Shown here one piece after another: positions 6,653 to 39,597 of a stretch of 64,000 nt of DNA. Within the stretch, counting starts at the first letter, position 1. Every line of letters starts with the position of its first letter. The stretch is from an uncultured Pseudomonadales bacterium (GTDB lineage Bacteria > Pseudomonadota > Gammaproteobacteria > Pseudomonadales > Azotimanducaceae): contig OY282430.1 in the NCBI GenBank assembly GCA_958296025.1, positions 3,524,477 to 3,588,476 of the forward strand, given 5' to 3'. The notes under the pieces are model-generated. The model ran no database searches and had not been told where the DNA came from. It saw nothing but the letters and a program-made list of their open reading frames with translations. A program made the translations under genes and the position numbers.

Positions 6653-9142
6653 TCAAGCAGCCACCAAGTTGACCAGCTTGTTCCGCACATAGATCACCTT
6701 GCGAATTTGCTTGCCCGCCAAATGGCGGGCGACGTTGCCTTCCCGCTCCGCCGCGGCCCGCACCCGGTTTTCCCCGGCCTCCACCGGCACCTGCACTTGG
6801 CCGCGCAACTTGCCGTTCACCTGCACGGCGATGCGCACGATGTCATCGACCAGTTTGGCCGGGTCATGACGCGGCCAGGCGGCCGACCTGAAAAGGCTTT
6901 CCCGAAAGCCCAGCCGCTCATGCAGTTCTTCTGCGATGTGCGGCGCGAAGGGGGCCACCATCACAACCAAGGGCAGCAGCTCCGCAACCCGGGCGCGGCG
7001 CCCTGCGGCACGGACCAAGTTCAGGTACTCCATCATGGCGGCGATGGCGGTGTTGAACTGAAGGTCCTCCAGCTGCTCGGTGACTTGCTTGATGGTGCGG
7101 TGCAAGGCTCGTTCGACCTCGGCCGCCGCCGGCGCCGCATCGTCCGCAACCGCGTCGGCAACGCTCTGCCACAGGCGGTTGAGAAAGCCGTAAGGCCCCT
7201 GAATGCCGGTGCCGCGGTAGTCGCCGCCCTGTTCGTATGGACCTAGGAACATGAGGTAAAGGCGCATGGCGTCCGCGCCGTACTCCTGGATGATGTCATC
7301 CGGCACGATGACGTTGCCCTTGCTCTTGGACATCTTGCGCCCCTCGCGGATCAACAGCCCGTGGGCGCGGAAGCGGCGGAAGGGTTCGTCAAAATCGATG
7401 ACGCCGAGGTCATGCAGGGCCATGCTGAGGAAGCGGGCGTACATCAGATGCAGCACGGCGTGCTCGTTGCCGCCGATGTAGGAGTCCACCGGCAGCCACT
7501 TGGCGGTGAGCGCCGGATCCATGGCCGCATCGGCCCGGCCGGCGGAGGGGTAGCGCAGAAAGTACCAACCGCTGCATAGGAAATTGTCGGTGACGTCGGT
7601 GTCCCGGTGGGCGGCCTTGCCACAGGCCGGGCAGGGGACGCGATGCCAATCCTTGGCCCGGGTCAATGGGCTTTGGCCGCTGTCGTCCGGGCGGAAGTCC
7701 TCCAAATAGGGCAGTTCGACCGGCAAATCCTCCTCCGGCACCGGCACCGGGCCGCAGTCCGCGCAGTGGATGATGGGGATGGGCGGCCCCCAATAACGCT
7801 GCCGGGATACGCACCAATCGCGCAGGCGGAAGTGGGTCTTGGGCACGGCACTGCCGGCGGCAGCCAGTTGCCGCACGATGGCCTGCTTGCCCTGTGCCAC
7901 CGGCAGCCCGTCGAAGGACCCGGAGTTTACCAACAAGCCATCGCCGGCGTAGGCTTCCGCCAAGGGCGTGGAGGCGTCCTCCCCGGCACCGGCGATCACT
8001 CGCACCACCGGCAGGCCGAAGGCGTTGGCGAACTCGAAGTCCCGTTGATCGTGGCCGGGCACCGCCATGATGGCGCCGGTGCCGTAGCTCATCAGCACAT
8101 AGTCCGCAATCCACACCGGAATGTGGGCGCCGTTGATCGGATTGACCGCATGGCCGCCGGTGAAGACGCCGGTCTTCTCCTTGTCGATCTTCTGCCGCTC
8201 CACCAGATCCCGGGTGGCGACCTCGGCACGGTAAGCCGTAACGGCGGGGCGCTGGGCGGGGGAAGTGAGCGCATCGACCAAGGGATGCTCCGGCGCCAGC
8301 ACCATGTAGGTGGCGCCGAACAGGGTGTCCGGCCTGGTGGTGAACACCCGAATGGCGGCCTTGGCGGCTTCTCCTGCGAGGGGTGCCCCCTCGCGCTCCC
8401 CGGCTGAAGGCTCCGCGATGGGGAAATCCACCTCCGCGCCCTCGCTGCGCCCAATCCAATTGGCCTGGGCCTTCTTGGTGACCTCAGACCAGTCGATGTG
8501 CGCCAAGTTGGCCAGCAGCTTTTCCGCGTACTCGGTGATCTTGAAGAACCACTGCGGCATCTGCCGCGTCTCCACCACGGATTCGCAGCGCTCGCACAGG
8601 CCGCTCAAGACCTGCTCGTTGGCCAGCACCGTCTTGCAGGAGGGGCACCAGTTGACCGGCGCCTCGCGCCGCTCCACCAAACCGCCGCGGTACAACTGCA
8701 GGAACACCCACTGAGTCCAGCGGTAATAGGACACCGCCGTGGTGTCCACCACATGGCCCCAGTCAAACATGCCGCCGAAGCGCTTGAGCATCCGAGTGAA
8801 GTTCTCGACGTTCTTCGGGATCAGGTCGTTCGGGTTGCCGCCCACCTTAAGGGCGTGGTTTTCCGAATGAATGCCGAAGGCGTCAAAGCCGATGGGCTCG
8901 AACACGTCCTTGCCGCGCAGCCGCCAAAAGCGCCCGTTCACGTCGGCGCCCGTGTAGGCGTAGAGGTTGCCGATGTGCAGCCCCTCGGCGGACGGATAGG
9001 GAAACATCATCAAGTTGTAGTAGGGGTTCTTGGCGCTCCTCAAGTCCGCATCGGTCATGCGGTTGACGCCATCCCGCTCCCAGCGCTCGCGCCACTTGCG
9101 CTCCACAGCTTCGGGGTTGTAGCGATTTGGTTGGTTGATCAT
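6653..9142 (-). CDS. leuS: leucyl-tRNA synthetase
   Basis: This class I synthetase of about 829 residues charges tRNA-Leu. The HIGH-type signature is PYPSAEGLHIGN, the second signature is GRKMSKSKGNV, and the zinc-like CPSC...CERC knuckle and CP1 editing domain (TTRPDTLFGATYMV) are present. The ATG at 9142 is preferred; the TTG two codons upstream is also possible. The text after the HIGH motif (GFDAFGIHSENHALKVGGNP) differs from the usual proteobacterial GWDAFGLPAE and reminds me of other phyla, so horizontal origin is possible. An in-frame palindromic element codes for residues near 243-257 (SAGEREGAPLAGE), between the zinc region and the start of CP1. Confidence 0.95.
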   Translation of the reverse strand: MINQPNRYNPEAVERKWRERWERDGVNRMTDADLRSAKNPYYNLMMFPYPSAEGLHIGNLYAYTGADVNGRFWRLRGKDVFEPIGFDAFGIHSENHALKVGGNPNDLIPKNVENFTRMLKRFGGMFDWGHVVDTTAVSYYRWTQWVFLQLYRGGLVERREAPVNWCPSCKTVLANEQVLSGLCERCESVVETRQMPQWFFKITEYAEKLLANLAHIDWSEVTKKAQANWIGRSEGAEVDFPIAEPSAGEREGAPLAGEAAKAAIRVFTTRPDTLFGATYMVLAPEHPLVDALTSPAQRPAVTAYRAEVATRDLVERQKIDKEKTGVFTGGHAVNPINGAHIPVWIADYVLMSYGTGAIMAVPGHDQRDFEFANAFGLPVVRVIAGAGEDASTPLAEAYAGDGLLVNSGSFDGLPVAQGKQAIVRQLAAAGSAVPKTHFRLRDWCVSRQRYWGPPIPIIHCADCGPVPVPEEDLPVELPYLEDFRPDDSGQSPLTRAKDWHRVPCPACGKAAHRDTDVTDNFLCSGWYFLRYPSAGRADAAMDPALTAKWLPVDSYIGGNEHAVLHLMYARFLSMALHDLGVIDFDEPFRRFRAHGLLIREGRKMSKSKGNVIVPDDIIQEYGADAMRLYLMFLGPYEQGGDYRGTGIQGPYGFLNRLWQSVADAVADDAAPAAAEVERALHRTIKQVTEQLEDLQFNTAIAAMMEYLNLVRAAGRRARVAELLPLVVMVAPFAPHIAEELHERLGFRESLFRSAAWPRHDPAKLVDDIVRIAVQVNGKLRGQVQVPVEAGENRVRAAAEREGNVARHLAGKQIRKVIYVRNKLVNLVAA
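8373..8414 (-). repeat. in-frame palindromic element, copy in leuS
   Basis: Read on the minus strand, this 42-bp stretch has the lead CAGCCGGGGAGC followed by the inverted repeat GCGAGGGG-gca-CCCCTCGC. It is read in frame as SAGEREGAPLAGE within leuS. Near-identical copies occur in lnt and in the HicB-like gene at 39.5 kb. Here the element has the same orientation as the gene. Confidence 0.85.
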
Positions 9143-9164
9143 GGCCAAAGCTTCCGCCTCTTAA

Positions 9165-9243
9165 GAAGCTAGTGGGGCGTTGCTTCAGGCTTGCGAGCCG
9201 GCCGGGTTCGGCTGAAGCACAACCGCAGTCCCGCAAACAGAAG
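9165..9243. repeat. direct repeat A: duplicated 3' end of lnt
   Basis: About 79 bp matching 10156-10232 with a handful of differences and a 3-base insertion. It reproduces the lnt C-terminus and stop codon (ending LCFSRTRPARKPEATPH on the minus strand). With repeat B it brackets the mntA/hepT pair. Confidence 0.88.
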
Positions 9244-9245
9244 AA

Positions 9246-9674
9246 TTAGGGTGCGCTTGCGCTGGTTGATGTATTTCCATTTTTGAGCGTGACAGGGTGA
9301 TCTGCATCCCACTTGACCAACTTGGGGACTGTTTCCTCCAGCATTGGCGCACGATATGTCAACGTCTCCCATAGCAAGTCTAAATCCCAAGACATATAGT
9401 CATGTGCAATGTAGTTTCGAAGTCTTCGAAATCCGTCCCAATCCAAATCCGCATGAGCTTTCTTGATGTCGCTGGACAGTTCGTGCAAAGCCAATCCTAT
9501 GATCCCTAGGCTTTGCAGGGCCGTCCTTGCGCACAGATTTCGCCCCTGATTCTCAATGAAGGCATCCTTGCCTTGCCATATGACTTTCCGCAGCAACGGC
9601 AACTCATCAGCGACGAACCGCAGGCGTTCTCCATCCAACCTCCGCTTGCGGAGTTTTTTGCCTAGACCACTCAC
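9246..9674 (-). CDS. hepT: HepT-like HEPN toxin RNase
   Basis: HepT proteins are HEPN-fold toxins regulated by a partner MNT nucleotidyltransferase. The product (142 residues) is mostly helical and carries RNYIAHDY near residue 95, which is the RX4HXY catalytic motif of HEPN nucleases. I chose the GTG at 9674 because it overlaps the mntA stop as GTGA; a longer ORF in this frame reaches 9974, but that part is the antisense-like shadow of mntA in another frame. The C-terminus (GNTSTSASAP) runs to the edge of direct repeat A, so its last residues may have been shaped by the insertion. Confidence 0.85.
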   Translation of the reverse strand: MSGLGKKLRKRRLDGERLRFVADELPLLRKVIWQGKDAFIENQGRNLCARTALQSLGIIGLALHELSSDIKKAHADLDWDGFRRLRNYIAHDYMSWDLDLLWETLTYRAPMLEETVPKLVKWDADHPVTLKNGNTSTSASAP

Positions 9675-9967
9675 AACGGTATGGCTTCGGCCAGCACTTC
9701 CTCTCGGATGCCGTTCATCAACATGGCTTCGGTCGCCACGTCCACCTTTTTTCCCGTCAGCTTCTCTACACGCGCCGTCATGCTGCACAGATTGAAGATG
9801 TCCCCACCGTTTGGCGATACAAGCAGATCTACGTCGCTGCGCCGCGTGTGGTCCCCACGAGCCCGGGAACCAAACAGCCTGACGTTGGTCAGTCCGTTTT
9901 CCTCCGCAATGGCCTTGATCGCCTCGCGGTGCCTGCCGACCACCGACTCCGGATGAATGTCGCGCAT
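9671..9967 (-). CDS. mntA: MntA-like minimal nucleotidyltransferase antitoxin
   Basis: This 98-residue protein has the polymerase-beta-like nucleotidyltransferase signature GSRARGDHTRRSDVDLL (GSX10DXD), which binds two metal ions through the two Asp. Proteins of this kind paired with HepT detoxify it by adding AMP to a Tyr in or near the HEPN motif. ATG 9967 is preferred, with GAGGA seven to eight bases upstream; ATGs at 10000 and 10030 are in frame but lack better signals. It is coupled to hepT by a four-base overlap. The pair lies between lnt and leuS, which are near neighbours in related genomes. Confidence 0.87.
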   Translation of the reverse strand: MRDIHPESVVGRHREAIKAIAEENGLTNVRLFGSRARGDHTRRSDVDLLVSPNGGDIFNLCSMTARVEKLTGKKVDVATEAMLMNGIREEVLAEAIPL

Positions 9968-10155
9968 TGAGCAATCCTCGTACGGGAGAATCGACACCAT
10001 CAGGATATGCCTAGACCAATGGCGCGTCAATCAGTTGTGGGGGATGGTGGTGCGGGTGCATCGCACCGCCACCCTTGTCCAAGGCGGGCGACGAATTGTG
10101 GTGGGTTAGTGCATCGGCGGGCAAAACGCCGCCCATGACCCCATCCGCCCCGGCC

Positions 10156-10232
10156 GAAGCTAGTGCGTTGCTTCAGGCTTGCGAGCCGGGCGGGTTTGGC
10201 TGAAGCACAACCGTAGTCCCGCAAACAGAAGG
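10156..10232. repeat. direct repeat B: native 3' end of lnt
   Basis: This is the original 3' end of lnt, including its stop codon (CTA at 10160-10162 on the plus strand). It is matched by repeat A at 9165-9243. The 0.9 kb between the copies holds mntA, hepT and a 125-bp leader with small hairpins (for example GGTGCG...CGCACC near 10050). Confidence 0.88.
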
Positions 10233-11914
10233 ATGGCCGCGGACAGGACAATCAGCCAAGCACTGCCGAAGCGGCTGTAGGGCGTTCGGCCCGCCATCAC
10301 TTGGAAGTTTCCGGCTAGTACCCCCTGCTCAAATTGCGGCAGGCGAGCGGTGATGCGCCCTTGGTGGTCCACGATGGCGGTGACGCCGCTGCTGGCGGCG
10401 CGCAGCAGCCAGCGGCCGTTCTCCAAGGCACGGGCCTGGGCGATCTGCAGGTGCTGCAAGGGGCCGATGCTGCGCCCGAACCAAGTGTCGTTGGTGATGG
10501 TGATGAGCAGGTCGGCCTGTGCCGCTGTGGTGCGCATGAGGTTCGGGTAAGCCACTTCGTAGCAGATGGCCAAGGCGGCGGCGTCCGCCCCGACCCGCAG
10601 CGGCGGTTGCCGCCAAGGCCCCGGTGCGCTGCGGGACATGGGCAGGTCAAAGAATTCGATCAGGCCGCGCAGCAGCCCCTCCAAGGGCACATATTCACCG
10701 AACGGCACCAAGCGGCGCTTTATGTAGCGCCCCTCGCCGTCGCCAAGCGCCAAGGCAGCATTCTGAAAGCGGTAGGGGTTCTCATGCGAGGAGTGCCGCC
10801 TTGCACTCTCCGGCTGCGCCTGCCAACGGGGAAGGCCCAACACCAAGGCGGTGCCGGATTGCTCGCCACGCCGCCCCAACCGCTCTAGCAGATCTCCAGC
10901 CTCATGCTCAAACAGGGTAATGGCGGCCTCCGGCCAGACGATGAGAGAGCCCTCAGCCGGGGAGCGCGAGGGGACACCCCCTCGCATGAAAGAGCCCTCA
11001 GCCGGGGTGCGCGAGGGGGAACCCCTCGAAGAAAAAGCCTCAGCCGGGGTGCGCGAGGGGGAACCCCGACTGCCCCAGTAGGGTTCGCTTAAGCCCAAGT
11101 AACGCTTGACGATGGGTTCCCGGCTTTCCGGCCGCCATTTGATCCCTTGATCCACATTGCCCTGCACCAAGGCGGCGGAGCGCTCCCCCGTCGGCACCAC
11201 CCACTGCACGGCGGACAACGCCAAGCCAAACAGCCAAGGTGCCGCGGCGATGGCCAAGGCTGTCGCCCGCAAGCCCCGGCCGAGGCCAGGCCGCAACGCC
11301 AGCAACAGAAAAGCGGCGCTGATGGCCACGCCGAAACTAGCCAAGCTGACGCCCCCCACCGGAATGAGATGGGCCAAAGGCGTTTGCAGATGGCCGTAGC
11401 CGGGATAGAGCCACGGAAAGCCGCTAAGAAACCAAGTGAGCAGCCACTCAAACAGCACCCAAACGGCGGCGAAAAGCCAAGCATTGAAAAACACTGCCCG
11501 CCAGCTTCCTTTGGCTGCCAACCTCTCTGACGATAAGGGCCGCCCCGAGCTGGACGGCACCCCCTGCGCCGGATCTTTCGCCCATGCCTTTTGCGCCAAC
11601 TTCAACAGCGCGTAAGCCCAGCCTTGCAGCAGCGTCAACAAAGCCAAGCCGCAAACGAACAGCAGCACCAGAAACCCAGCCAGCCAAGGCGAGGCGCCGC
11701 CGTAGAGGTGAATGCTGACATAGACCCAACTTACCCCCACACCGTACTTGCCAACGCCGTAGGCGAAGCCGAGCGCCGCCGCCCCCGCAGCGGTCGAACG
11801 ATCCAACAGCCAAAGCCAGCCGGCCACGGAGACCAAGCCCAAGGGCCACCAACCAAAGGGCGCCAAGCTCAGCGGCAGCAGCGCCCCAAAGCCGAATGCG
11901 AATAAAAGACCCAT
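10160..11914 (-). CDS. lnt: apolipoprotein N-acyltransferase
   Basis: Lnt adds the third acyl chain to lipoproteins at the inner membrane. The protein (584 residues) has several N-terminal membrane helices and a C-terminal nitrilase-type domain. The expected triad is visible: Glu in IVWPEAAI, Lys in YIKRRLVPFGEYVPL, and Cys in AICYEVAYP. The ATG at 11914 (MGLLFAFGFGALLPL) is the natural start; the ORF extends to 11947 only through a palindromic element. Three tandem element copies code for about 40 extra residues (SRGSPSRTPAE repeats) immediately before the catalytic-Glu strand. A degenerate copy (PESARRHSSHEN) lies later, and an odd hydrophilic loop (GVPSSSGRPLSSERL) near 11540 may be another. 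Confidence 0.94.
   Translation of the reverse strand: MGLLFAFGFGALLPLSLAPFGWWPLGLVSVAGWLWLLDRSTAAGAAALGFAYGVGKYGVGVSWVYVSIHLYGGASPWLAGFLVLLFVCGLALLTLLQGWAYALLKLAQKAWAKDPAQGVPSSSGRPLSSERLAAKGSWRAVFFNAWLFAAVWVLFEWLLTWFLSGFPWLYPGYGHLQTPLAHLIPVGGVSLASFGVAISAAFLLLALRPGLGRGLRATALAIAAAPWLFGLALSAVQWVVPTGERSAALVQGNVDQGIKWRPESREPIVKRYLGLSEPYWGSRGSPSRTPAEAFSSRGSPSRTPAEGSFMRGGVPSRSPAEGSLIVWPEAAITLFEHEAGDLLERLGRRGEQSGTALVLGLPRWQAQPESARRHSSHENPYRFQNAALALGDGEGRYIKRRLVPFGEYVPLEGLLRGLIEFFDLPMSRSAPGPWRQPPLRVGADAAALAICYEVAYPNLMRTTAAQADLLITITNDTWFGRSIGPLQHLQIAQARALENGRWLLRAASSGVTAIVDHQGRITARLPQFEQGVLAGNFQVMAGRTPYSRFGSAWLIVLSAAILLFAGLRLCFSQTRPARKPEATH
10780..10820 (-). repeat. degenerate palindromic element in lnt
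   Basis: On the minus strand CAGCCGGAGAGTGCAAGGCG followed by GCACTCCTCGCATGAG matches the element with several substitutions. It is in frame and codes for QPESARRHSSHEN. The arms no longer pair fully, as expected for an old insertion. Confidence 0.55.
10947..11074 (+). repeat. three tandem palindromic elements inside lnt
   Basis: Three copies at about 10947-10988, 10992-11032 and 11036-11074, each TCAGCCGGGG(A/T)GCGCGAGGGG then CCCCTCG or CCCC. They run antiparallel to lnt and keep its frame open. Copies two and three agree over most of their length, which suggests recent tandem growth. Confidence 0.9.
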
Positions 11915-11951
11915 CAGCCGGGCAGCGCGAGGGGGAGCCCCTTGCACTATA
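11908..11951 (+). repeat. palindromic element at the corC-lnt junction
   Basis: ATCAGCCGGGCAGCGCGAGG followed by GGGAGCCCCTTGCAC. It fills the 43-bp space between the corC stop and the lnt ATG and overlaps the lnt start, so it may change lnt ribosome binding. Confidence 0.8.
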
Positions 11952-11957
11952 AGACCT

Positions 11958-12803
11958 TCAGTCGGACACCCGTATCAGCCGCAAGCGACGGGACTCGGCG
12001 GCGAGCACCTCAAAGTTCAGGCCGTCGATGGCGACGGTGTCGCCGCGGCTTGGCATGCGGCCGAAGGCGTTGAGAACAATGCCCCCGATGGTGTCGAAGC
12101 CCCCGTCTGGGAAGTTGACGCCAAAGTGGGCGTTGAAGTCCTCAATGGGGGTGGTGGCCTTGACGTTGCAGGCGCCATCGTTCAAGGGGCTGATGAGGCT
12201 GTCCTCGTCCACGTCGTGCTCGTCCTCAATTTCGCCGACGATCTGCTCCAGCACATCCTCGATGGTGGCGGCGCCGCTGACGTGGCCGTATTCGTCCACC
12301 ACCACGGCCATGTGGTTGCGGGTTTGCCGAAACTCGCCCAGCAGCACGTTCAGCCGCTTGCTTTCCGGGATGATGTGCGGCGGGCGGATGCAGTCCTTGA
12401 GGTCGAAGTCCGCCTTGCCGCGTTGGTTGGCGTTGTGCAGCATGGGCAGGAGATCCTTGGCGTGCAGGATGCCCTTGACGTCGTCCGGGTCATCGCCGAC
12501 CACGGGGAAGCGGGAGTGCCTGGATTCGATGATGACCTCAAGCAATTCATCCAAGGGCTTGGCGGCCTCCAAGCAGACCAGTTGGGAGCGTGGCACCATG
12601 ATGTCCCGGGCCTGCATGTCCGCGATCTGCAGGGCGCCGAGGCTGATGTTCAGGGCCTCGTCGTCCATGAGGTTGCGCTGCGCCGCGGTGTGCAGCATCT
12701 CTTTGAGCTCGGCGCGGTCCTCCGGCTGGCCGCTGAACCGATCAAACAACCATTCGCGCAGGCCGGTGCGCGGTTCGGCCGGGGGTTGTTGGGTGACGCT
12801 CAT
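11958..12803 (-). CDS. corC: CorC/YbeX family CBS-domain protein
   Basis: This 281-residue protein matches YbeX/CorC, a cytoplasmic protein with two CBS domains and a C-terminal transporter-associated (CorC_HlyC) domain, linked to magnesium/cobalt efflux and to ribosome-related stress. CBS segments ADMQARDIMVPRSQ and VKGILHAKDLLP are clear, as is the closing AIDGLNFEVLAAESRRLR. I chose ATG 12803 (MSVTQQPPAE) because it lies six bases after the ybeY stop; the ORF itself runs further upstream inside ybeY. It is the fourth gene of the miaB-ybeZ-ybeY-corC-lnt operon. Confidence 0.92.
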   Translation of the reverse strand: MSVTQQPPAEPRTGLREWLFDRFSGQPEDRAELKEMLHTAAQRNLMDDEALNISLGALQIADMQARDIMVPRSQLVCLEAAKPLDELLEVIIESRHSRFPVVGDDPDDVKGILHAKDLLPMLHNANQRGKADFDLKDCIRPPHIIPESKRLNVLLGEFRQTRNHMAVVVDEYGHVSGAATIEDVLEQIVGEIEDEHDVDEDSLISPLNDGACNVKATTPIEDFNAHFGVNFPDGGFDTIGGIVLNAFGRMPSRGDTVAIDGLNFEVLAAESRRLRLIRVSD

Positions 12804-12808
12804 GGCGG

Positions 12809-13255
12809 CTAAGGGGCGTCTAGGCCAAGTTTGTTGAGGATGGCCGCCTCCAAACGCTGCATGGTCTCGGCCCCTTGGTCCGTTTGATGGTCGTAGCCGC
12901 GCAGGTGCAGGACGCCATGCACCACCATGTGCGCATAGTGGCCCGTCAGGCACTTGGCCTGCCGTCGGGCCTGCTCCTGCACAACCGGGGCGCATACCAC
13001 CACGTCACCCAAGGGCAAGGCACAGGCCGAACCCCCGGCATGGGCGGGGAATTCTCCTGCGGGGAAACTCAGCACATTGGTCGGTGCTTGAACCCCCCGG
13101 TACTTGCCGTTCAAAGCCTCGGATTCCTCGCCGTCCACCACACGAAGGCAAACCTCGCCGGCGGTCCCCTCCAAGGCGCACTCCGCCCAGCGCCGGAAGT
13201 CCGCCGACGGCGGCAAGTGGGCGCAGGCACACGCCAGCTGCACGTCAACCGGCAT
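12809..13255 (-). CDS. ybeY: endoribonuclease YbeY
   Basis: YbeY is a zinc-dependent single-strand endoribonuclease needed for 16S rRNA 3' processing and late 70S quality control. The metal signature HMVVHGVLHLRGYDH (three His, then the conserved GYDH) is intact, and APTNVLSFPAGE is the family's substrate-groove strand. ATG 13255 (MPVDVQLA) is preferred because GGGGGAG lies six bases upstream; the ATG at 13261 touches that Shine-Dalgarno. The length of 148 residues is normal. It lies between ybeZ and corC on the same strand. Confidence 0.94.
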   Translation of the reverse strand: MPVDVQLACACAHLPPSADFRRWAECALEGTAGEVCLRVVDGEESEALNGKYRGVQAPTNVLSFPAGEFPAHAGGSACALPLGDVVVCAPVVQEQARRQAKCLTGHYAHMVVHGVLHLRGYDHQTDQGAETMQRLEAAILNKLGLDAP

Positions 13256-13350
13256 GCCCATCTCCCCCCTGGTCGGCCAGCCTAGGGGCGGCGCCGATGG
13301 GCAGGGCGCCGGGCGAGAGTCGCCGCATTGCATTCTTGGCGGCTAACGTT

Positions 13351-14400: not shown

Positions 14401-14480
14401 GTGTTGTGGTTAAGCCTCTCATACCTATCGGGACCCTTAGCATATCCGCGCCTTAGGGCCTGTCAAATGAAGAATGTGCG

Positions 14481-15872: not shown

Positions 15873-15936
15873 GGTTGGCGGGGGCGGGGCGCTTAGAGCA
15901 GATGTTGGGGATTCATGGCGGAAAGAGCGCTTTCCG

Positions 15937-22671: not shown

Positions 22672-23211
22672 ATGATCATCGACACTCTCGCCGCCGCCAA
22701 AGCCCTCGAAAGGGCAGGCATGGACAACGGCCAAGCGGAGGCCGTCACCAACGTCGTTCGGGATGCAACGGCGGGCCTCGCCACTCAAGCCGATCTGAAC
22801 TCCGCCCTAGCCGGATTGGAAGGGAGGCTGAACGACAGGCTTGACGCCCATGACGCCAAACTGGACTCCGCCTTGGCCGCCCACAACGAAAGGCTTGACG
22901 CTCATGACGCCAAACTGGGCTCCGCCTTGGCCGCCCACAACGAAAGGCTTGACGCTCATGACGCCAAACTGGGCTCCGCCTTGGCCGCCCACAACGAAAG
23001 GCTTGACGCTCATGACGCCAAACTGGGCTCCGCCTTGGCCGCCCATGACGCCAAACTGGTTTCCGCCTTGGCCGCCCAAGAAGGTCGCCTCCGCGGCGAA
23101 CTCTACAAGGCGTTGTGGGTCTTTGGGCTGGGTATCATCACGGTCAACGTTGCCATCGTCAGCGCAGCAGTCGGTATTGCCCTGTGGGTGTGGCCGCCGG
23201 GGGCGGGCTGA
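22672..23211 (+). CDS. coiled-coil membrane protein with 18-residue tandem repeats
   Basis: The 179-residue product shares its N-terminus with the 18801-19061 gene (IDTLAAAKALERAG, MDNGQAEAVTNVVRDATAG). It then has an 18-residue repeat (LDAHDAKLGSALAAHNER) present four times plus a shorter version, and ends with one hydrophobic helix (FGLGIITVNVAIVSAAVGIALW). The repeat has the 3-4 spacing of a coiled coil. It is likely a membrane-anchored rod of variable length. ATG 22672 is preferred to the GTG three codons upstream. Function is unknown. The DNA repeat suggests copy number could change between strains. Confidence 0.75.
   Translation: MIIDTLAAAKALERAGMDNGQAEAVTNVVRDATAGLATQADLNSALAGLEGRLNDRLDAHDAKLDSALAAHNERLDAHDAKLGSALAAHNERLDAHDAKLGSALAAHNERLDAHDAKLGSALAAHDAKLVSALAAQEGRLRGELYKALWVFGLGIITVNVAIVSAAVGIALWVWPPGAG
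22837..23082 (+). repeat. 54-bp tandem repeat array
   Basis: Units start at 22837, 22891, 22945 and 22999; units two to four are nearly or fully identical (AGGCTTGACGCTCATGACGC and onwards). A shortened fifth unit follows. The period is 18 codons, so gain or loss of a unit keeps the frame. Confidence 0.92.
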
Positions 23212-30200: not shown

Positions 30201-30280
30201 GTCGGCGTTCGCTGAGCGGGCCGGCGGCTTAGGCCGCGTTGCGCCAGCCGCGTCCCGCCGGCAAAGCCATGTCCTGTCGG

Positions 30281-31522: not shown

Positions 31523-31580
31523 GGGCGATGGTTTCCGGCGCGAATAGGCACTTGGAAGCGCCCCCTGCAAGCAGATTAAA

Positions 31581-32024: not shown

Positions 32025-32170
32025 CGGCAGCGCACAAAGACCGCTGGCCACTGCCAAGCGCTATCCAAAACGCTGGGTTGGCGGCCTTGCAACGGAAACC
32101 ATCGGCGGCCTGCCCGCAAAGACGCCCGTTGACCTTATAATGAGCCGCCATTCAGTCAGCCCAAGCCTCC

Positions 32171-32767: not shown

Positions 32768-32901
32768 TGGTCTTAGCAGCGGGCCAATCGAACCCCGCAC
32801 CTTGGTTAGTTGCGCCAAGCGGTAGGTTGCGTGACGCTAGTGCTGCCGCTAGAATGCCGCCAAACCTTGGAGTTGGCGAGAATGGCGCCTAGGAAACCCG
32901 T

Positions 32902-33639
32902 ATGCTGCTGATCCCAGCCATCGATCTTAAGGAAGGGCGGTGCGTGCGCCTAAAGCAGGGGCGCATGGCGGACGCCACCCTGTACTCCGACGACCCGGCG
33001 GCCATGGCCGAACGCTGGCTGGAAGCCGGTTGCCGGCGGCTGCATGTGGTCGATTTGGACGCCGCATTCGCCGGAGCGTTGCGCAACCATCGCTCGGTTG
33101 CGGCCATCGTCAAACGCGCCCAAGGCGTCCCGGTGCAGGTCGGCGGCGGCATCCGTTCTCTGGCGAACGCCGCCATGTATCTCGACGCCGGGGTGGATGC
33201 GGTCATCGTCGGCACCGCGGCGGTGCGGAATTTCGACTTTCTGGAACAACTGACGGCGTACTTCCCCAACCGCATCCTGTTCGGGCTGGATGCCCGCCAA
33301 GGCCGGGCGGCCATCGACGGTTGGGACGTCACCACGGACAAGACTGCAACGGCGTTGGCGCTGGCAGCCCACGCCCTGCCCTTGGCCGGCATCGTCCACA
33401 CCGACATCGAGCGGGACGGCATGTTGAGCGGCATCAACATCGCCGCCACCTTGGCGCTCGCCGAGGCGGTATCGACGCCGGTCATCGCCTCCGGCGGGGT
33501 GCATAACCTGAGCGACTTGGCCGCCCTGAAAGCCGCCGACGACCAAGCTGGCCGCCTCTTGTTGGGTACCATCACCGGGCGCGCCATCTACGCCGGCACC
33601 CTGGACTTCCGCCAAGGCCAAAGCCTGCTGGACGCCTAG
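32902..33639 (+). CDS. hisA: ProFAR isomerase (HisA)
   Basis: HisA is a (beta/alpha)8 barrel that isomerises the histidine intermediate ProFAR. Catalytic Asp residues are in IPAIDLKEGRCVRL (Asp 8) and ILFGLDARQGR, and the two phosphate loops QVGGGIRS and ASGGVHN are intact. It is 245 residues with an AGGAAA five bases before the ATG. hisF, which normally follows, is absent; the next gene is on the opposite strand. Confidence 0.96.
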   Translation: MLLIPAIDLKEGRCVRLKQGRMADATLYSDDPAAMAERWLEAGCRRLHVVDLDAAFAGALRNHRSVAAIVKRAQGVPVQVGGGIRSLANAAMYLDAGVDAVIVGTAAVRNFDFLEQLTAYFPNRILFGLDARQGRAAIDGWDVTTDKTATALALAAHALPLAGIVHTDIERDGMLSGINIAATLALAEAVSTPVIASGGVHNLSDLAALKAADDQAGRLLLGTITGRAIYAGTLDFRQGQSLLDA

Positions 33640-33662
33640 GGGCCTGCCCTCCCGGCGCAACT

Positions 33663-34571
33663 CTAGGTTGCCGCGGCCTGCCCCGGGAACAGAAACTTTC
33701 CCACCGCCTGGAGGCGACCATAGCGTTCGCCCAAGTCGGCTAGGCATGGATACGCAGGCGGGGCGTAGGGCCGCCCCGTTAAGCGGGCATACTCATCCAG
33801 GCTTGCGCTGAAGTAGCCGTCATGAGAGGTGGCCGCCCCGTTGTGGACTTGGTGGAAGGTGGCTTCCCCAAGCAGAAGCACATTCAGCGCATCCTGCCGG
33901 CACACTAGGCGGCTGAACAACTCCAGGTTGCACAGCCCGCCCCCCGGCCTTGCAAACCCCTCGCGGTAGCCGCCCGCCGCCAGCCAAGTGCGCCGCGTCA
34001 TGGCGAAGGCGTTGCTCTCATTTTGCTGGAAGGGATTGCCGTCCCTATGGGCGCCGGCCCAGACGCTGATGGGGTAGAGCTGGTCCAAGTCCGTTCGCCA
34101 AGACACCGAGGCAAGCAATTCGTCCTCCGCCGCCTGATCGTATCCCGCCCGCACGGACTGCATTTGCGGTTTTCGGCCGAGGTGGCGGCTGCCGACGAAG
34201 GTGAAGGCTTGGGGATGGCGTTCCAGCACATCAAGGGTTCGGCGGACCAAGTACGAACTGGCCAAGCGGGCGCCGTCGATGCAGATCATCAGGAAATCTC
34301 CGGCAGCCCGATCGCGCACCGCTTGGTTGATGGCGCTAACCGGCGACGCCTTGGCGTCCTGTGGCGCTATGCGAACGCAGTGAACGGGACGCGGCGCACT
34401 AGCGATGGCGTCGCCGAGATTCAAGGGTTGCGGCGAGCCGTTGTCCACCACGAGGAGTTCGTACTCCGCCTCTTCAACGCCTCTTTGCAAAGGCGGCAGA
34501 AAGGACAGCAGGGTTCTGGGTGCCTCCCGCTGCATGTTGTAGGCGCAGATGACGATGGACAGCTTGGTCAT
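33663..34571 (-). CDS. family 2 glycosyltransferase
   Basis: The 302-residue protein has a GT-A fold start, LSIVICAYNMQREAPRTL, and the nucleotide region YELLVVDNGSPQ. At the place of the usual DXD it reads MICIDGARLAS, so the metal motif is altered. It ends LYPISVWAGAH, GYREGFARPGGG and an alpha-helical C-terminus with no membrane helix. Acceptor and sugar are unknown. It lies 29 bp downstream of hisC on the same strand, occupying the place where hisF would be expected. Confidence 0.85.
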   Translation of the reverse strand: MTKLSIVICAYNMQREAPRTLLSFLPPLQRGVEEAEYELLVVDNGSPQPLNLGDAIASAPRPVHCVRIAPQDAKASPVSAINQAVRDRAAGDFLMICIDGARLASSYLVRRTLDVLERHPQAFTFVGSRHLGRKPQMQSVRAGYDQAAEDELLASVSWRTDLDQLYPISVWAGAHRDGNPFQQNESNAFAMTRRTWLAAGGYREGFARPGGGLCNLELFSRLVCRQDALNVLLLGEATFHQVHNGAATSHDGYFSASLDEYARLTGRPYAPPAYPCLADLGERYGRLQAVGKFLFPGQAAAT

Positions 34572-34600
34572 GGGGCTCCTTGGAAAGCGTCGTTGCTGCC

Positions 34601-35692
34601 TTAGACGGCCAGATAATCCGCCAACGCCCGCAAGACCGCTTCATTTTCGTGCGCCCTTCCCACCGTGATGCGCAGCATTTGGTCGGAGGCGGCCGGCCGT
34701 GGAATGATGCCGCGCCTCATCAAAAAGGCTGCCGCCCCGGCACCGTCCTTGCCGCCGCCGTCGGGAAAGCGGATCAGGTAGAAGTTGGCGACGCTGGGGA
34801 TCATCCGCAAGCCCAACTCCGCCAAGCGGGTTGCAATGCGTTCCAACCATTCGGCGTTGTGCCGTCGCACCCTTTGCACATGGCCCGCGTCCCGCACCGC
34901 GGCGGCGGCGGCGGCCATCGCCGGCCCATTGGCGTTGAACGGAGTGCGGATGCGCTGCACGGCGTCCACCACCGGCGGCGGACCGTAGGCCCAGCCGATG
35001 CGCAGCCCCGCCAAGCCGTGGATCTTGGAGAAGGTGCGCGTCATCACTGCGTTGTCGCCTGCCGCCACGAGAGCCGCGCCGCTGTCGTAGTCCGCTCTTT
35101 CCACGTATTCGGCGTAGGCGCCGTCGATCACCAGCAGACAGTTGCCGGGCAAGCCGGCACGCAGCCGCTGCAATTCCTGGGCGGTGACATAGGTGCCGGT
35201 CGGGTTGTTGGGGTTGGCGATCACGCACAGCCTGGACTTTGCCGTGGCCCGCGCCAACAGGGCGTCCACATCCACCCGATCATTCCGCTCCGCGGCGAAG
35301 ATGGGTCTTCCGCCTTGCGCGAGGCAGTGGATCCGGCACATCTCAAAGCCGTTTTCGCTGAGCAGCGCCTCATCGCCCGGCCGCAAATAAGTGCGCATCA
35401 GCAGCAGGATTAGTTCGTCGGAACCGTTGCCGCAGATGATTTGGTCGGGGTTCAGCCCATGCACTTCGGCGATGGCGCGGCGCAACGCCGTCTGCTCGCC
35501 GTCCGGATAGCGGTTCAGCTGCTCCGCCGCCCCCCGGTAGGCGCGCACGGCGGCCGGGCTCGGCCCCAAGGAGGATTCGTTGGAGGACAGCTTGATCGGA
35601 GCAACCACCCCCGGGATGTCACTTTTCCCCTGTTCATAGGGCGCCAGCTTCGCTACGCCCGGCACGGGGGCCGGCGCAACCGGCGCTTTCAT
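34601..35692 (-). CDS. hisC: histidinol-phosphate aminotransferase
   Basis: HisC is a PLP enzyme that aminates imidazole acetol-phosphate. The 363-residue protein has the family start IKLSSNESSLGPSP, the NPNNPTGTYV cofactor segment, and the PLP Lys in TRTFSKIHGLAGLRIGWAYG. Related enzymes accept aromatic keto acids, so a dual role with phenylalanine/tyrosine is possible. It starts 280 bp from the divergent ATPase gene. Confidence 0.94.
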   Translation of the reverse strand: MKAPVAPAPVPGVAKLAPYEQGKSDIPGVVAPIKLSSNESSLGPSPAAVRAYRGAAEQLNRYPDGEQTALRRAIAEVHGLNPDQIICGNGSDELILLLMRTYLRPGDEALLSENGFEMCRIHCLAQGGRPIFAAERNDRVDVDALLARATAKSRLCVIANPNNPTGTYVTAQELQRLRAGLPGNCLLVIDGAYAEYVERADYDSGAALVAAGDNAVMTRTFSKIHGLAGLRIGWAYGPPPVVDAVQRIRTPFNANGPAMAAAAAAVRDAGHVQRVRRHNAEWLERIATRLAELGLRMIPSVANFYLIRFPDGGGKDGAGAAAFLMRRGIIPRPAASDQMLRITVGRAHENEAVLRALADYLAV

Positions 35693-35824
35693 GAGCGATC
35701 AACCATGTGGATGCTGCCTCCTCGGCTGACCGGACATGCTACACAGAATCAACGTCGATGCGGGCTCCGCTTCTTCGGGACATCCCCTTGCGGCAGGGAC
35801 GCCTTTCGGGACTCCGCAGGCGGC

Positions 35825-35853
35825 GTGACAAAGGATTTTGACAGGGACCCTCC
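35825..35853 (+). repeat. imperfect direct repeat left of the AAA ATPase gene
   Basis: GTGACAAAGGATTTTGACAG followed by GGACCCTCC; 22 of 29 positions match 37311-37339. Confidence 0.55.
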
Positions 35854-35865
35854 AAGGGCTAGAAT
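35838..35865 (+). promoter_or_regulatory. sigma-70 promoter for the AAA ATPase gene
   Basis: TTGACA (35838-35843), 16-base spacer, TAGAAT (35860-35865). The -35 is a consensus match. It lies about 108 bp before the ATG at 35974 and overlaps the direct repeat at 35825-35853. Confidence 0.65.
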
Positions 35866-35973
35866 GCTCAACGCAGAGGGCTTTTCAAGCAAGAGAGGGA
35901 CTTGCGCTGCTCTGCAAGCCGTCCTCCGCAGCGATGATGCTGCACGGGCGCCCCTAGGTTTCGATGATCTGAC

Positions 35974-37218
35974 ATGGACAATCCCTTCAATCCGGGTTCC
36001 GGCACCGCACCCCCGCATTTCGGCGGGCGGAACGGCGACTTGCATGTGTTCGACAGATGCGTCAGCAAGGCTAAAAAGGGGATCATGGAAGGCCCGATGG
36101 TGCTTGTCGCCCCTAGGGGGCAAGGCAAAACGGTCCTGCTCCGGCGCATGGTCGAGAAAGTGATGAGCGACGGCGGCACCGTGCTGGAACTGGTGCCTTC
36201 GGAAATCCCCACGCCGTCCGCCCTAGCCGTGAAGCTGGCTCATGCCGTGCGCAGCGGCGAGGGTTTGCCCATCCGCAGGGAACGTCGCAAAAAGGCCAAG
36301 GGGGGCGTACCTCTCTTAGGCGGGGAAATGGGCGACGTGACGCACATGGAGATGGACATGGGGAGCGTGGCCGAGTCCTTGGGGAAAATAGGTGCGGGTG
36401 GGATGGCGCTGCTTGCCGTGGACGAAGCGCACGAACTGCCGCTGGACGTAGGTTGGTGCTTGCTGCAGGGCGAGCAAAAGGCGCGTGTGCAGGGCACCCG
36501 TTTGCAGACGGTGTTTGCGGGGACACCGGACCTAGAGCCGCACTTCCAAAAAATGCGCGTCACTTTTTGGTCCCGTCTGCACGACCGGGAGCGGCGCCTG
36601 CAGTTGCTTGAGGGCGATGATGCGGTGGCGGCGGTGGCATGCCCGCTGAAGGACGAGCGCGGGCTGGATGTTGACGACGCATTGCGTCAACGCATTATGT
36701 CCATGACATCAGGGTATCCGTACTTCCTGCAGGTGCTGGGCGCGTCCTTATGGGATGCGGCCCCAATGGATGCTACGGCGTTCGCGCCGGACGCGGTGGC
36801 GCTGGCGGCCAAACAATTCCAGGTGACAAAGGAATTTTACTACCAGAAGCGCGTGGACGAACTGGGGGATAAGGGACTGTTGGGCGCGGCGTTCGCTGTC
36901 GCTGCGGCGTGCGAGACGAAGGGCGGTGCGCTCCTAAGGCAGCAGGCGCAATTGGCTTGCCAAGCCGGGAAAAGGCTGGGTGTTGACGATGCGCAGCCCC
37001 TTTCGCCCACGTCGGCGCAGATGGTGGACGGTTTAACCCAACAAGGGTTCGTTTGGCACGGGCATCCCACCAACCCCCGCCATCTAGTGCCAGGCATCCC
37101 GTCGCTGATGCACTATGTGCGCCAATATGTCGCTGAATCTCTGGATGATACGGCGGATGATGCGCTGTGCAGGGACGAGGACTTCAGCCGCGCCTGCCGG
37201 ACAAGCCGCTCCCCCTAG
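35974..37218 (+). CDS. AAA/STAND-like ATPase of unknown role
   Basis: The 414-residue protein starts with FGGRNGDLHVFDRC, then Walker A LVAPRGQGKTVLLRRMVEK (near residue 45), Walker B MALLAVDEAHELP and an ArgFinger-like VTFWSRLHDRERR. This is an ORC/Cdc6- or STAND-like P-loop ATPase, similar in outline to those used in transposition (TniB-like) or conflict systems. No transposase or effector is beside it. C-terminal residues 330-400 could form a winged helix (AQMVDGLTQQGFVWHGH). It has its own good promoter but no clear Shine-Dalgarno. Its gene lies between imperfect direct repeats, so it may be a recent insert between hisC and the ThDP gene. Confidence 0.72.
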   Translation: MDNPFNPGSGTAPPHFGGRNGDLHVFDRCVSKAKKGIMEGPMVLVAPRGQGKTVLLRRMVEKVMSDGGTVLELVPSEIPTPSALAVKLAHAVRSGEGLPIRRERRKKAKGGVPLLGGEMGDVTHMEMDMGSVAESLGKIGAGGMALLAVDEAHELPLDVGWCLLQGEQKARVQGTRLQTVFAGTPDLEPHFQKMRVTFWSRLHDRERRLQLLEGDDAVAAVACPLKDERGLDVDDALRQRIMSMTSGYPYFLQVLGASLWDAAPMDATAFAPDAVALAAKQFQVTKEFYYQKRVDELGDKGLLGAAFAVAAACETKGGALLRQQAQLACQAGKRLGVDDAQPLSPTSAQMVDGLTQQGFVWHGHPTNPRHLVPGIPSLMHYVRQYVAESLDDTADDALCRDEDFSRACRTSRSP

Positions 37219-37310
37219 CGGCCCGCCCTAACCTGTGCAGTCCAATGTGTGCGCACACCGCTTCACTTGGCGAAAGGCTCGGCCAATGCTTACAGCGCAA
37301 GTGCCTTGGT

Positions 37311-37339
37311 GCGACAAAAGATTTTGGTAGAAACCCTCG
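37311..37339 (+). repeat. imperfect direct repeat right of the AAA ATPase gene
   Basis: GCGACAAAAGATTTTGGTAG followed by AAACCCTCG; partner of 35825-35853. It ends 23 bases before the start of the ThDP gene. Confidence 0.55.
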
Positions 37340-37362
37340 TCTCCCAAACGGAACAAAACCAC

Positions 37363-38991
37363 ATGCGTGAAATGAGCGGTGCGGATGCCCTGTTGGCGCA
37401 GTTGTTGGCCAATGGGGTGGACACCGTCTTCGGCCTGCCCGGCGGCCAGCTAGACCACTTTTTTGACGCCATGCACCGTGCCGGCCAGCGCGTGCGGTTC
37501 ATCGGCAGCCGCCACGAACAGGGCGCCGCCTACATGGCCTTCGGCTACGCCCGCTCCACCGGCCGTCCGGGGGTTTATTGCGTGGTGCCCGGACCAGGTG
37601 TGCTGAACACCGCCGCCGCCCTGTGCTCCGCCTACGCCACCAACGCGCCGCTGTTCTGTCTGACCGGTCAGATCCCCAGCGAGGGGTTGGGAAAGGGCAT
37701 CGGCTACCTGCACGAGCTGCCCGATCAGCTGACCACGTTGCGCAGCCTGACCGGTTGGTCGGGCCGCGTCATGGCGCCGGAGGATGCGCCGGCCGCGGTC
37801 AACGAGGCGTTTCAACACATGCTCGGTGGGCGGCAGCGGCCAGTGTCCTTGGAGATGCCGATGGACGTCATGGGCCGCCGCGGTCGCGTAGCGTTGCTGC
37901 CGGCGGCGACGCCGCCCAAGGCGGCGGATGTGGATCAAGACGCGGCGCTGGCCGCCGCCAAGCTGATGGCCAAGTCCCGGCAGCCCGTCATCATCGCTGG
38001 AGGCGGCGCATTATCCGCCCGTGCCGAAGTCGGCGAACTGGCCGAGCGCCTGCAGGCGCCGGTGGTGACCTTCCGCAACGGCCGGGGCTTGCTGTCGGAC
38101 CGCAGCTATCTGTCGCAGAACATCGCCGCCGGCTACGAGCTCTGGCGCACCGTCGATCTGGTCATCGGCATCGGCAGCCGCATGGAGTGGCAATACCTGC
38201 ATTGGGGCATGCCAACCGGCGTCCCGGTCGTGCGCATCGACATCGACGGCGACGAAATCGCCCGCCACGGCCCGCCCACCGTGGCCTTGAACTGCGATGG
38301 CGCAGCCGCCGTCACAGCAGTTCTCAGCGGCCTGGATGCGGTCTTGGGCAAACGCGCCTCAAGGGAGGGGGAATTGACCGCGCTCAAGGCGGCGGTGCGC
38401 AAGCGCATCGAGTCGGTGCAGCCTCAGGTGGCCTTTCTGGACGCCATCCGCGCCGCCCTGCCCGACGACGGCTTCCTGGTGGATGAGATCACCCAGGTCG
38501 GCTACGCCGCCTGGTACGCCTTCCCCGTCTATGCGCCGCGCCGCCTAGTAACCAGCGGCTACCAAGGCACACTCGGCTACGGCTACGCCACCGCCTTGGG
38601 CGTAAAAGCAGCCAACCCCGATGCGCCAGTGGTCAGCATCAGCGGCGACGGCGGCTTCCTGTACACCTCCAACGAGATGGCCGCCGCCGTGCAATACGGC
38701 ATCGGCCTGGTGGCCGTGGTGTTCAACAACAACAAGTTCCAAAACGTCCAGCGCCAGCAAAAGGAGTGGTTCGGAGGACGGCTGATCGGCTCCGATCTGC
38801 ACAACCCGGACTTCGTGCGCCTAGGGGAGAGCTTCGGGCTGCGCAGCGCCCGGGCGGAGACGCCGGACGCCCTGCGCAAGGCGCTTGGGCGGTGCCTAGA
38901 GCGCGACGAACCGGCGCTGATCGAGGTGCCCGTGGGCGACATGGCCTCTCCGTGGCCTTTCATCATGCGCGATCGGCTGTTTCCGCCTTAG
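37363..38991 (+). CDS. thiamine-diphosphate enzyme (acetolactate synthase-like)
   Basis: The 542-residue protein has the three ThDP domains: FGLPGGQLDHFFDAM with the catalytic-Glu segment SRHEQGAAYMAFGYAR, a central domain (QPVIIAGGGALS), and the ThDP-binding motif starting SGDGGFLYTSNEM and ending VVFNNN. It resembles large-subunit acetolactate synthases, glyoxylate carboligases and benzoylformate decarboxylases; the lack of a small subunit gene nearby argues against a plain biosynthetic acetolactate synthase. ATG 37363 is chosen because it matches the family N-terminus (ADALLAQLLANGVD). The substrate cannot be fixed from sequence. Confidence 0.85.
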   Translation: MREMSGADALLAQLLANGVDTVFGLPGGQLDHFFDAMHRAGQRVRFIGSRHEQGAAYMAFGYARSTGRPGVYCVVPGPGVLNTAAALCSAYATNAPLFCLTGQIPSEGLGKGIGYLHELPDQLTTLRSLTGWSGRVMAPEDAPAAVNEAFQHMLGGRQRPVSLEMPMDVMGRRGRVALLPAATPPKAADVDQDAALAAAKLMAKSRQPVIIAGGGALSARAEVGELAERLQAPVVTFRNGRGLLSDRSYLSQNIAAGYELWRTVDLVIGIGSRMEWQYLHWGMPTGVPVVRIDIDGDEIARHGPPTVALNCDGAAAVTAVLSGLDAVLGKRASREGELTALKAAVRKRIESVQPQVAFLDAIRAALPDDGFLVDEITQVGYAAWYAFPVYAPRRLVTSGYQGTLGYGYATALGVKAANPDAPVVSISGDGGFLYTSNEMAAAVQYGIGLVAVVFNNNKFQNVQRQQKEWFGGRLIGSDLHNPDFVRLGESFGLRSARAETPDALRKALGRCLERDEPALIEVPVGDMASPWPFIMRDRLFPP

Positions 38992-39279
38992 AGTCTGCGC
39001 CGCAGAAAGATAGTTCAAGACGAGCGAGGGGAAGGATGAGTCGGATTCGACGCGGCCGTTGGATACGTTCTTGGCGCGGTGTTCCTGCAAGATGAAGCGG
39101 ATCAGCGCGAACGGCGCGTCGACATTCTCGGCAATACGCGCGATGGTGCGTTTCTCGTTCCCTACGAAAAGAGGCTTTTCTGTTCCTTCCGAAACTTCGC
39201 CTCGCGTCCAAGCGTTTGTGTGGCAGAATACGTTAAGGTGAGTTTGTGCTGCGCACCTGGGTGGCGCAATGGAGGCAAG

Positions 39280-39597
39280 GTGGCCACTGGATGCATCCTT
39301 AGCGACTACTTGGAAAGCGCGATGTCCTTGGCGACGTTCGACAAGCTCGGCGATGGCAGCTTCGCGGGCAAGGTTCCTCCCTGCCAGGGCGTAGTCGCCC
39401 TCGGCGACACGTTGATGGAATGCCAGAGTTTGCTGCGGTCCACGCTGGAGGACTGGCTCCTGGTTGGCCTGAGAATGGGGCACCGGATGCCCGTGCTTTC
39501 TGGGCTGAATCTCAATGGAGAGCCCGCAGCCGGGGAGCGCGAGGGGCTTACCCCTCGCGAGAACGGTCCCGCAAGTGAGCCGTTGGACGCCGTGTAA
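39280..39597 (+). CDS. orphan HicB-like antitoxin-fold protein
   Basis: Residues about 8-75 of this 105-residue product match the HicB-like fold: DYLESAMSLATFDKLGDGSF, then CQGVVALGDTLMECQSLL and LEDWLLVGLRMGHRMPVL. No HicA-type toxin gene is directly beside it. A GTG at 39280 is chosen because GGAGG lies four bases upstream and the fold starts soon after; the ORF opens earlier at 39079. The last 30 residues (EPAAGEREGLTPREN) come from a palindromic element, so the native C-terminus has been replaced or extended. Confidence 0.65.
   Translation: MATGCILSDYLESAMSLATFDKLGDGSFAGKVPPCQGVVALGDTLMECQSLLRSTLEDWLLVGLRMGHRMPVLSGLNLNGEPAAGEREGLTPRENGPASEPLDAV
39528..39563 (+). repeat. palindromic element in the HicB-like gene
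   Basis: GAGAGCCCGCAGCCGGGGAG, then GCGAGGGG-ctta-CCCCTCGC. The arms are perfect 8-bp inverted repeats. Same orientation as the gene, in frame, and read as PAAGEREGLTPRE. Confidence 0.88.

Follow-up and report, generated by a model that had tools for sequence, protein, structure and literature searches.

A dispersed, REP-like palindromic repeat, probably mobile, lies in frame within conserved genes of Azotimanducaceae gammaproteobacteria

The stretch of DNA analyzed here (the window) comprises 64,000 nucleotides at positions 3524477-3588476 of the genome of an uncultured Pseudomonadales bacterium of the family Azotimanducaceae, a single contig of 3,915,453 bp designated G000; other genomes are designated in the same manner, and individual loci by L numbers. 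It carries copies of a short, hairpin-forming repeat, hereafter the element, that lie inside or at the margin of three protein genes. The leucyl-tRNA synthetase gene leuS (6653..9148, minus strand, 831 aa), identified by Pfam (PF13603 at residues 230-428) and by alignment with relatives, contains a copy at 8369..8413 (minus strand) that scores 70.6 bits (E 2.3e-14) with the covariance model of the repeat, R1, and gives the sense-frame reading EPSAGEREGAPLAGE. According to Pfam, the alignment and a structural model, this copy sits in a variable loop of the LeuRS editing domain.

The apolipoprotein N-acyltransferase gene lnt (10160..11947, minus strand, 595 aa; Pfam LNT_N and CN_hydrolase) has two internal sites. 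The larger is an array on the plus strand, with unit 1 at 10947..10991 (R1 59.9 bits), unit 2 at 10992..11036 (64.3 bits) and unit 3, its 3' arm truncated, at approximately 11034..11076, the last being found by a pattern match (11040-11052) and not by R1. The smaller is a degenerate, older copy at 10779..10821 (minus strand), for which the R1 match is weak (21.3 bits, E 0.008). The open reading frame (ORF) continues through both of these sites, as it does through the leuS copy. Another copy (11908..11952, plus strand, 39.5 bits) lies at the start of the lnt reading frame, and the called ORF begins within it; the Lnt ORF of the related genome G005 likewise starts inside element copies. Finally, a copy at 39520..39565 (plus strand, 59 bits) occupies the last codons of a HicB/UPF0150-like ORF (39079..39597, plus strand; UPF0150 at residues 76-138), whose C-terminal tail is partly element-encoded.

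The abundance of the element exceeds chance. Its lead, TCAGCCGGGGWGC, occurs six times in the window with at most one mismatch, against a mean of 0.51 in shuffled windows, and none of 100 shuffles reached six. The first-pass annotation of this stretch had proposed a family of palindromic elements inserted in frame within protein genes, and the existence of that family is borne out on a genome-wide scale. R1 recovers the window copies it had listed, except for the third lnt unit, and finds 62 copies in G000 at E<=0.01, a lower bound for which 150 of 3726 candidates were scored. At gathering score, Rfam returned only a tRNA from the window and no family at the element places.

To define the repeat unit, a consensus was built from an alignment of 27 copies and from 101 distinct first-unit 5' ends of five genomes. 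The unit of ∼45 nt consists of a 5' tail, R-GAGCCYTCAGCCGGGGAGC, conserved over 19 nt; an 8-bp hairpin, GCGAGGGG-variable loop-CCCCTCGC; and a terminal ATGAAAA. Across the 101 5' ends conservation sets in abruptly at R-GAGCC, and it fades past the A-rich 3' tail. Among the 150 best of 196 matches, a set biased toward conserved copies, stem and 5' tail positions are mostly 95-100% conserved, with few variable ones, and the loop varies freely in length and sequence. Neither consensus has a GTAG tetranucleotide at the hairpin foot or a CGTC tag at one end, and that of the 27 copies has no terminal inverted repeat.

A unit usually spans 15 codons, and four of the six frames of its consensus are free of stops. 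Arrays tallied in five genomes (n=102) are single in 52 cases, double in 31 and composed of 3 to 8 units in 19. Start-to-start spacing of units is 42-46 nt with the exception of two of 27, and the head-to-tail order within arrays is an outcome of how the arrays were built. In the array tally the nearest pair of opposite orientation, which lies in the window, is 123 nt apart, and the next 323 nt. As regards strand bias relative to replication, the two orientations look even by eye in the list of G000 matches at E<=0.01.

In the genomes scanned, the element is confined to part of one family, in which its copy number is very uneven. A pattern search of G000 found 72 places at up to three mismatches and 27 for the reversed pattern; this control is inflated because GGGGAGCGCGAGGGG is identical when read backwards, and the covariance model was therefore relied on. 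At up to two mismatches the pattern occurs at 57 places in G000 and in eight of 28 relatives (7/8 in the genus, and G014 of the family), with no match in the other 20. R1 finds 29 copies in G005 and 62 in G014 at E<=0.001. A scan of 150 family genomes at E<=1e-6, in which 41 candidates were scored per genome so that counts are lower bounds, matched 29 genomes (G000 included) in four of 37 genera (g1, g7, g25 and g47); within genus g7 the count spans at least 2 (G056) to at least 47 (G078), and carrier assemblies measure 2.8-5.7 Mb. In a sample of 293 genomes of the order, scanned at E<=1e-7 under strict filters with 21 candidates scored per genome, only G000 and G014 matched, both of the Azotimanducaceae. 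One scan of genome contigs placed the closest leuS on OY282455.1, from an uncultured Pseudomonadales metagenome-assembled genome (86% identical); the relatives also include Candidatus Azophilus lithoversatilis (Candidatus Azotimanducaceae; leuS 78%). The carrier metagenome-assembled genomes are presumably those of sponge symbionts. The top R1 score is the same, 74 bits, in G000, G003 and G014, even though MurD of G014 and G000 is only ∼45% identical; the repeat would thus be kept by one conserved machinery or have moved between lineages.

Resemblances outside the family were sought in viral and plasmid sequences. An exact 20-mer of the element had no match in viral contigs, and a three-unit array had none among plasmids and phages at E<=1e-5. 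A 43-nt consensus gave matches at E<=1 in 31 plasmid records, the lowest E among the 20 rows listed being 4e-3, and in two phage records. In all, 13 viral stretches (L285-L297) contain the hairpin core GGGGWGCGCGAGGGG-loop-CCCCTCGC but lack the CAGCC tail; nine of them were searched with Rfam and gave nothing. In some plasmids of alphaproteobacteria, integrase/transposase genes have a related hairpin upstream of them: four of eight plasmid regions inspected (L298, L299, L301, L305) have such a gene and a large partner just downstream, three do not, and one is unannotated. These plasmid and viral matches are more readily put down to chance, or to convergence on a G+C-rich hairpin, than to homology.

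To survey placement relative to genes, arrays were drawn from 33 stretches of G000, 20 each of G003 and G008, and 30 loci of G005 and G014. The tally leaves aside the overlapping loci L192, L193, L195, L199, L201, L205 and L207, regions fetched later, and model matches in G005 and G014 without a fetched locus. Of these 102 arrays, 21 are clearly internal to a gene, 13 doubtfully internal, 29 at a gene end, 38 intergenic and one at a contig edge. The classes come from a codon-usage ORF caller and are crude, the 39520 copy being called intergenic despite its UPF0150 ORF and the MurD array only doubtful.

The host genes span unrelated families. Pfam was run on 40 ORFs and left six without any family. 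Internal or doubtful hosts in G000 are LeuRS, Lnt, an AlkZ-like protein, a type ISP methylase and two AAA-ATPase/PDDEXK paralogues. G014 has two Mur ligases, one with a MurD-like N-terminal domain and the other, named MurC-like from its size and place, with a run of N in the insert, as well as a PF00144 protein. The hosts in G003 comprise a flavoprotein/DFP protein (CoaBC by domain make-up), an enoyl-CoA hydratase family protein, a TonB-dependent receptor and an HflX-like GTPase; those in G008, an amine oxidase family protein and a Rieske protein. G005 adds an APH-family protein, and one of its arrays lies directly past the leuS stop codon. The two G000 paralogues (L133, L142) hold the element at a matching position, with two units in one and one in the other, and this insertion may be older than the gene duplication. 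At three G014 places (L180:1387-1800, L182 and L200) the element lies within a miniature inverted-repeat transposable element (MITE), which we take to be IS630-like, with the ends CTAGTGTTCCGTCAA...TTGACGGAGCACTAG; a related MITE in G000 (L131:4763-4864) is without the element.

Reading-frame analysis links the spacing of units to coding context. Spacing is a multiple of three in 14/14 internal cases, 9/10 doubtful, 15/18 at gene ends and 26/43 intergenic (internal against intergenic, Fisher p 0.003); counted per array, it is so in 9/9 internal and 13/22 intergenic arrays (p 0.025). As arrays count as internal only where an ORF is open, a test on flanks only was added, in which 15 of 19 arrays with same-strand coding flanks hold the frame (p 6e-5 against 1/3), or 13 of 17 when the shared G005 lnt site and one of the two paralogues are removed (p 3e-4). 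The 34 internal or doubtful arrays use five of the six frames (sense 6, 7 and 6; antisense 0, 4 and 11). Two frames of the consensus contain a stop: an antisense frame with the stop in the core, which was never seen in use, and a sense frame with the stop in the variable ATGA, where the leuS and G005 L181 copies carry another codon. Insertion in frame in unrelated genes, in both orientations, is upheld. The further statement that the element always keeps the frame has to be restricted, as the 102 arrays include 21 clearly and 13 doubtfully internal ones. As judged from the sequences, the frame pattern fits translation with purifying selection and would argue against bypass or splicing.

Comparison with orthologues provides further evidence, as the insert is missing from most or all of them in three hosts. 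Compared with G001, G006 and G007, the Lnt array amounts to a net gain of 120 nt in G000 and of 135 nt in G005; G003, G004 and G008 lack it too. Six of seven orthologues are thus empty, and the seventh, from G005, has the array with different units. The array directly precedes the LIVWPEAAI strand, whose glutamate we take to be catalytic. The degenerate lnt copy (+27 nt) is common to G000 and G005 and absent from the aligned genes of G001, G004, G006, G007 and G008. Residues ∼147-234 of G014 MurD have no counterpart in 11/11 other genomes; this insert is composite, and part of it matches other G014 places. Similarly, residues ∼295-357 of G003 CoaBC are without counterpart in 11/11 other genomes, and in seven relatives the gene is shorter by 183-198 nt, every difference being a multiple of three. 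One common site has four units in G003 and two in G008. Another, doubtfully within a gene, is empty in G003 (L212) and holds one unit in G008 (L241), a net +45. The leuS element is absent in 9/9 relatives aligned, where the loop is variable in length. As a side observation, L152:2507-3713 (G000) and L185:1-1207 (G005) are ∼98% identical, compared with ∼86% for other matched flanks, and this stretch is perhaps a recently moved element.

To assess the consequence for the proteins, AlphaFold2 models of LeuRS (alignment of 24 sequences) and Lnt (15 sequences) were examined. The element is the longest segment with a predicted local distance difference test score (pLDDT) below 50 in LeuRS (248-262), where it lies between two editing-domain strands (model mean 80.1), and the array is the longest such segment in Lnt (295-331; model mean 83.2); both models have other low-confidence segments. 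Frame conservation and structure prediction together suggest that the inserts are translated, each unit as a probably disordered 15-residue peptide. There is no sign of a protein-level function, and the inserts are taken for tolerated selfish DNA.

These observations are very likely explained by a non-autonomous, REP-like (repetitive extragenic palindromic) mobile element that grows in tandem in place and whose frame-keeping loop inserts survive, are translated and are tolerated. Such an element of ∼45 nt, with its fixed 5' tail, 8-bp hairpin, free loop and short A-rich 3' end, would be copied to further sites by a trans-acting factor. Arrays would then grow or shrink by tandem duplication in place, as the differing unit numbers at shared sites suggest. 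Since a unit has 15 codons and its consensus is stop-free in four of six frames, frame-keeping insertions in protein loops could survive, while selection would remove those that do not keep the frame in a loop; the survivors would be translated and tolerated as selfish DNA. The proposal of a mobile element tolerated in proteins is supported as regards dispersed hairpins, in-frame insertion and empty sites in relatives, and the sharp unit ends and the copies within another mobile element also speak for mobility; movement itself is inferred from comparison of genomes, and none was observed. The element is genuine, REP-like and spread over the whole genome; it was probably active until recently, and its tolerance inside conserved genes is unusual.

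Several points weigh against this reading. Covariation in the stem is slight, and slid controls are not beaten on double changes. No target-site duplication is discernible, the best filled/empty pair being only ∼86% identical, and leuS was rejected as a clean empty site, several relatives having an equally long loop of other sequence. The spacing and frame counts of internal arrays are partly circular, since an open ORF defines that class, and spacings from the same array are not independent of one another; moreover, four of the 19 same-strand flank pairs are out of frame, and a 44-nt spacing occurs in one of the doubtful in-gene arrays. In the modeled proteins the inserts are covered by few relatives, and the low pLDDT there may partly reflect this. 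Lastly, searches for a mobilizer found none. The RAYT/TnpA-REP (REP-associated tyrosine) transposase to which the first-pass annotation had looked is missing, as the domain Y1_Tnp (RAYT/IS200), from G000 and from 5/8 other carriers tested. Of nine other genomes examined, G001, G006, G008 and the element-free G002 have this domain, and G003, G004, G005, G007 and G014 do not; the transposase was rejected as mobilizer on account of this absence in 6/9 carriers. An IS91-type Y2 transposase, as expected of an IS91/Helitron-like single-ended element, was rejected for want of any carrier association (Y2_Tnp in 2/20 carriers and 6/16 non-carriers).

Two of the RAYT-like ORFs, L176:1204-1812 (G006) and L174:157-762 (G008), adjoin a different dispersed repeat, which encodes IEGGTPS-like peptides in neighboring frames and is perhaps the REP family belonging to them.

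The hairpins could instead be functional RNA or DNA structures (3' end stabilizers, terminators or protein-binding sites) maintained by selection, with the in-gene copies as by-products. A highly conserved stem and tail around a free loop, albeit in the biased set of matches, would suit such roles, as would the frequency of gene-end arrays, exemplified by the one just past the G005 leuS stop. This account is unlikely, if deserving of serious consideration: sites differ among relatives, copy counts in g7 diverge widely even as lower bounds, many copies lie within genes in either orientation, and at the element places in the window no Rfam family scores at the gathering level. A family of REPs in the strict sense, moved by a RAYT (a tyrosine, Y1/HUH transposase) whose gene has been lost or has diverged in G000, would share the size, hairpin, dispersal and grouping of the element and would account for RAYT-like ORFs in G001, G006 and G008. 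However, the hairpin foot is untagged, all six genomes without Y1_Tnp (G000, G003, G004, G005, G007 and G014) are copy-rich while an element-free genome has it, and the two RAYT-like ORFs inspected, of three, adjoin the IEGGTPS-like repeat; we regard this explanation as distinctly improbable.

Two further accounts concern the fate of the inserts in expression. Selection for the peptides themselves, as protein repeats, linkers or binding motifs, could be read from arrays of up to four units in frame in conserved enzymes and from an lnt array common to two species. It is hard to reconcile with five frames yielding five different peptides in unrelated proteins, with the predicted disorder of the inserts and with sister genomes that lack them, and is given very little weight. 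Removal or skipping in expression, by translational bypass or RNA splicing, would leave the proteins free of the inserts and might be expected of hairpins inside genes, some within enzyme domains. Frame and stops would then be irrelevant, yet the flank pairs (15/19) and in-gene spacings (14/14) favor the frame and the core-stop frame was not seen in use, a point that is itself partly circular; this possibility appears slighter still.

Beyond the REP-like mobile element favored here, a bolder version can be put forward only tentatively, and we would not expect it to hold in full. It pictures a REP-sized mobile hairpin, with neither tag nor known HUH transposase, which acts as a steady supplier of 15-codon modules, amplifies in tandem within essential enzymes and stays nearly unchanged across four genera of a single family. 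Its movement would rely on a mechanism not yet described, such as a novel recombinase or copying templated by the hairpin, and each move might redraw the loop.

Two other features of the window were recorded. Direct repeats of 70 nt, 94% identical (9177-9246 and 10165-10234), flank a HepT-like/nucleotidyltransferase gene pair between leuS and lnt; the pair resembles an insertion, the G005 counterparts of the two flanking genes being only ∼220 bp apart. At 22777-23100 a 54-nt tandem repeat forms five overlapping 108-nt copies at 54-nt spacing, with a marginal EPTP-domain match.

The best-known protein-coding palindromes are those of obligate intracellular alphaproteobacteria, whose genomes are small, and they are commonly explained by weak selection. 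LeuRS, Lnt, MurD and CoaBC are essential in well-studied bacteria. Behavior like that of the Rickettsia palindromic elements (RPE) is now seen in gammaproteobacteria with genomes of 2.8-5.7 Mb, in enzymes such as these. The extra residues in a host protein can number between 15 and nearly 90 and would derive wholly or mostly from mobile DNA, which is relevant to annotators and structural biologists. Insertion, tandem growth and selection on frame become measurable here, given that the units are nearly identical, that many sites are empty and that unit numbers differ at shared sites.

Published work does not sustain the initial impression that nothing of the kind was described for a gammaproteobacterium: intragenic REPs are reported in uvrA of Thioalkalivibrio, in tRNA synthetase genes of X. 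oryzae and in pseudouridine synthase genes of S. maltophilia (PMC3733652), and in-frame repeat fusions in Yersinia (PMC2229807). GTAG/CGTC REPs also lie inside ORFs in O. terrae and R. conorii, although the same source cautions that many copies at ORF starts are perhaps non-coding (PMC3733652). Like the element, these REPs are short hairpins that have an unpaired tail, occur alone or in groups and lie in part within ORFs, tRNA synthetase and repair genes included; CGTC REPs likewise have no dedicated transposase (PMC3733652). The element, in contrast, fails the defining tests of GTAG and CGTC REPs, being untagged, and six of nine carriers tested lack Y1_Tnp; it further differs in its 19-nt conserved 5' tail and its head-to-tail grouping. 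As some species can lose their REPtrons (PMC3733652), the absence of Y1_Tnp alone is not final.

Other families share part of this profile. ERIC, YPAL/RU-2 and Coxiella QMITE1 are likewise dispersed non-autonomous repeats that are sometimes fused in frame to genes (PMC10969869, PMC2229807), but they measure ∼100-400 bp, many have terminal inverted repeats or duplications (PMC2229807), and the listed overlaps of QMITE1 with functional genes are C-terminal (PMC5896051). PARCEL comprises tandem palindromic coding repeats, but its units are of 75 nt, encode a conserved amphipathic protein motif and are tied to membrane and unknown-function proteins (PMC2996958), whereas the element lies in conserved enzymes. 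The closest behavior is that of RPE and their Wolbachia counterparts (WPE), palindromic selfish DNA found in frame in unrelated and often conserved genes, translated, and also present between genes (PMC10969869, PMC2229807); WPE-like inserts are described as well (PMC4224334). The element resembles them in being palindromic, dispersed, multi-copy and in frame within conserved genes (Lnt, MurD, CoaBC) that are empty in relatives. It differs in its length of ∼45 nt against ∼105-150 nt for RPE (PMC10969869, PMC2229807), and from both RPE and WPE in being G+C-rich, in forming head-to-tail arrays of up to eight units, in using five frames and in residing in a gammaproteobacterium with a 3.9 Mb genome. 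By analogy of behavior, the element appears to work like RPEs. No description of an untagged, tandem, mostly 15-codon family was recognized among the open-licence PMC papers listed in literature searches; the kind of element is already known, and the family is, as far as seen, new to that literature.

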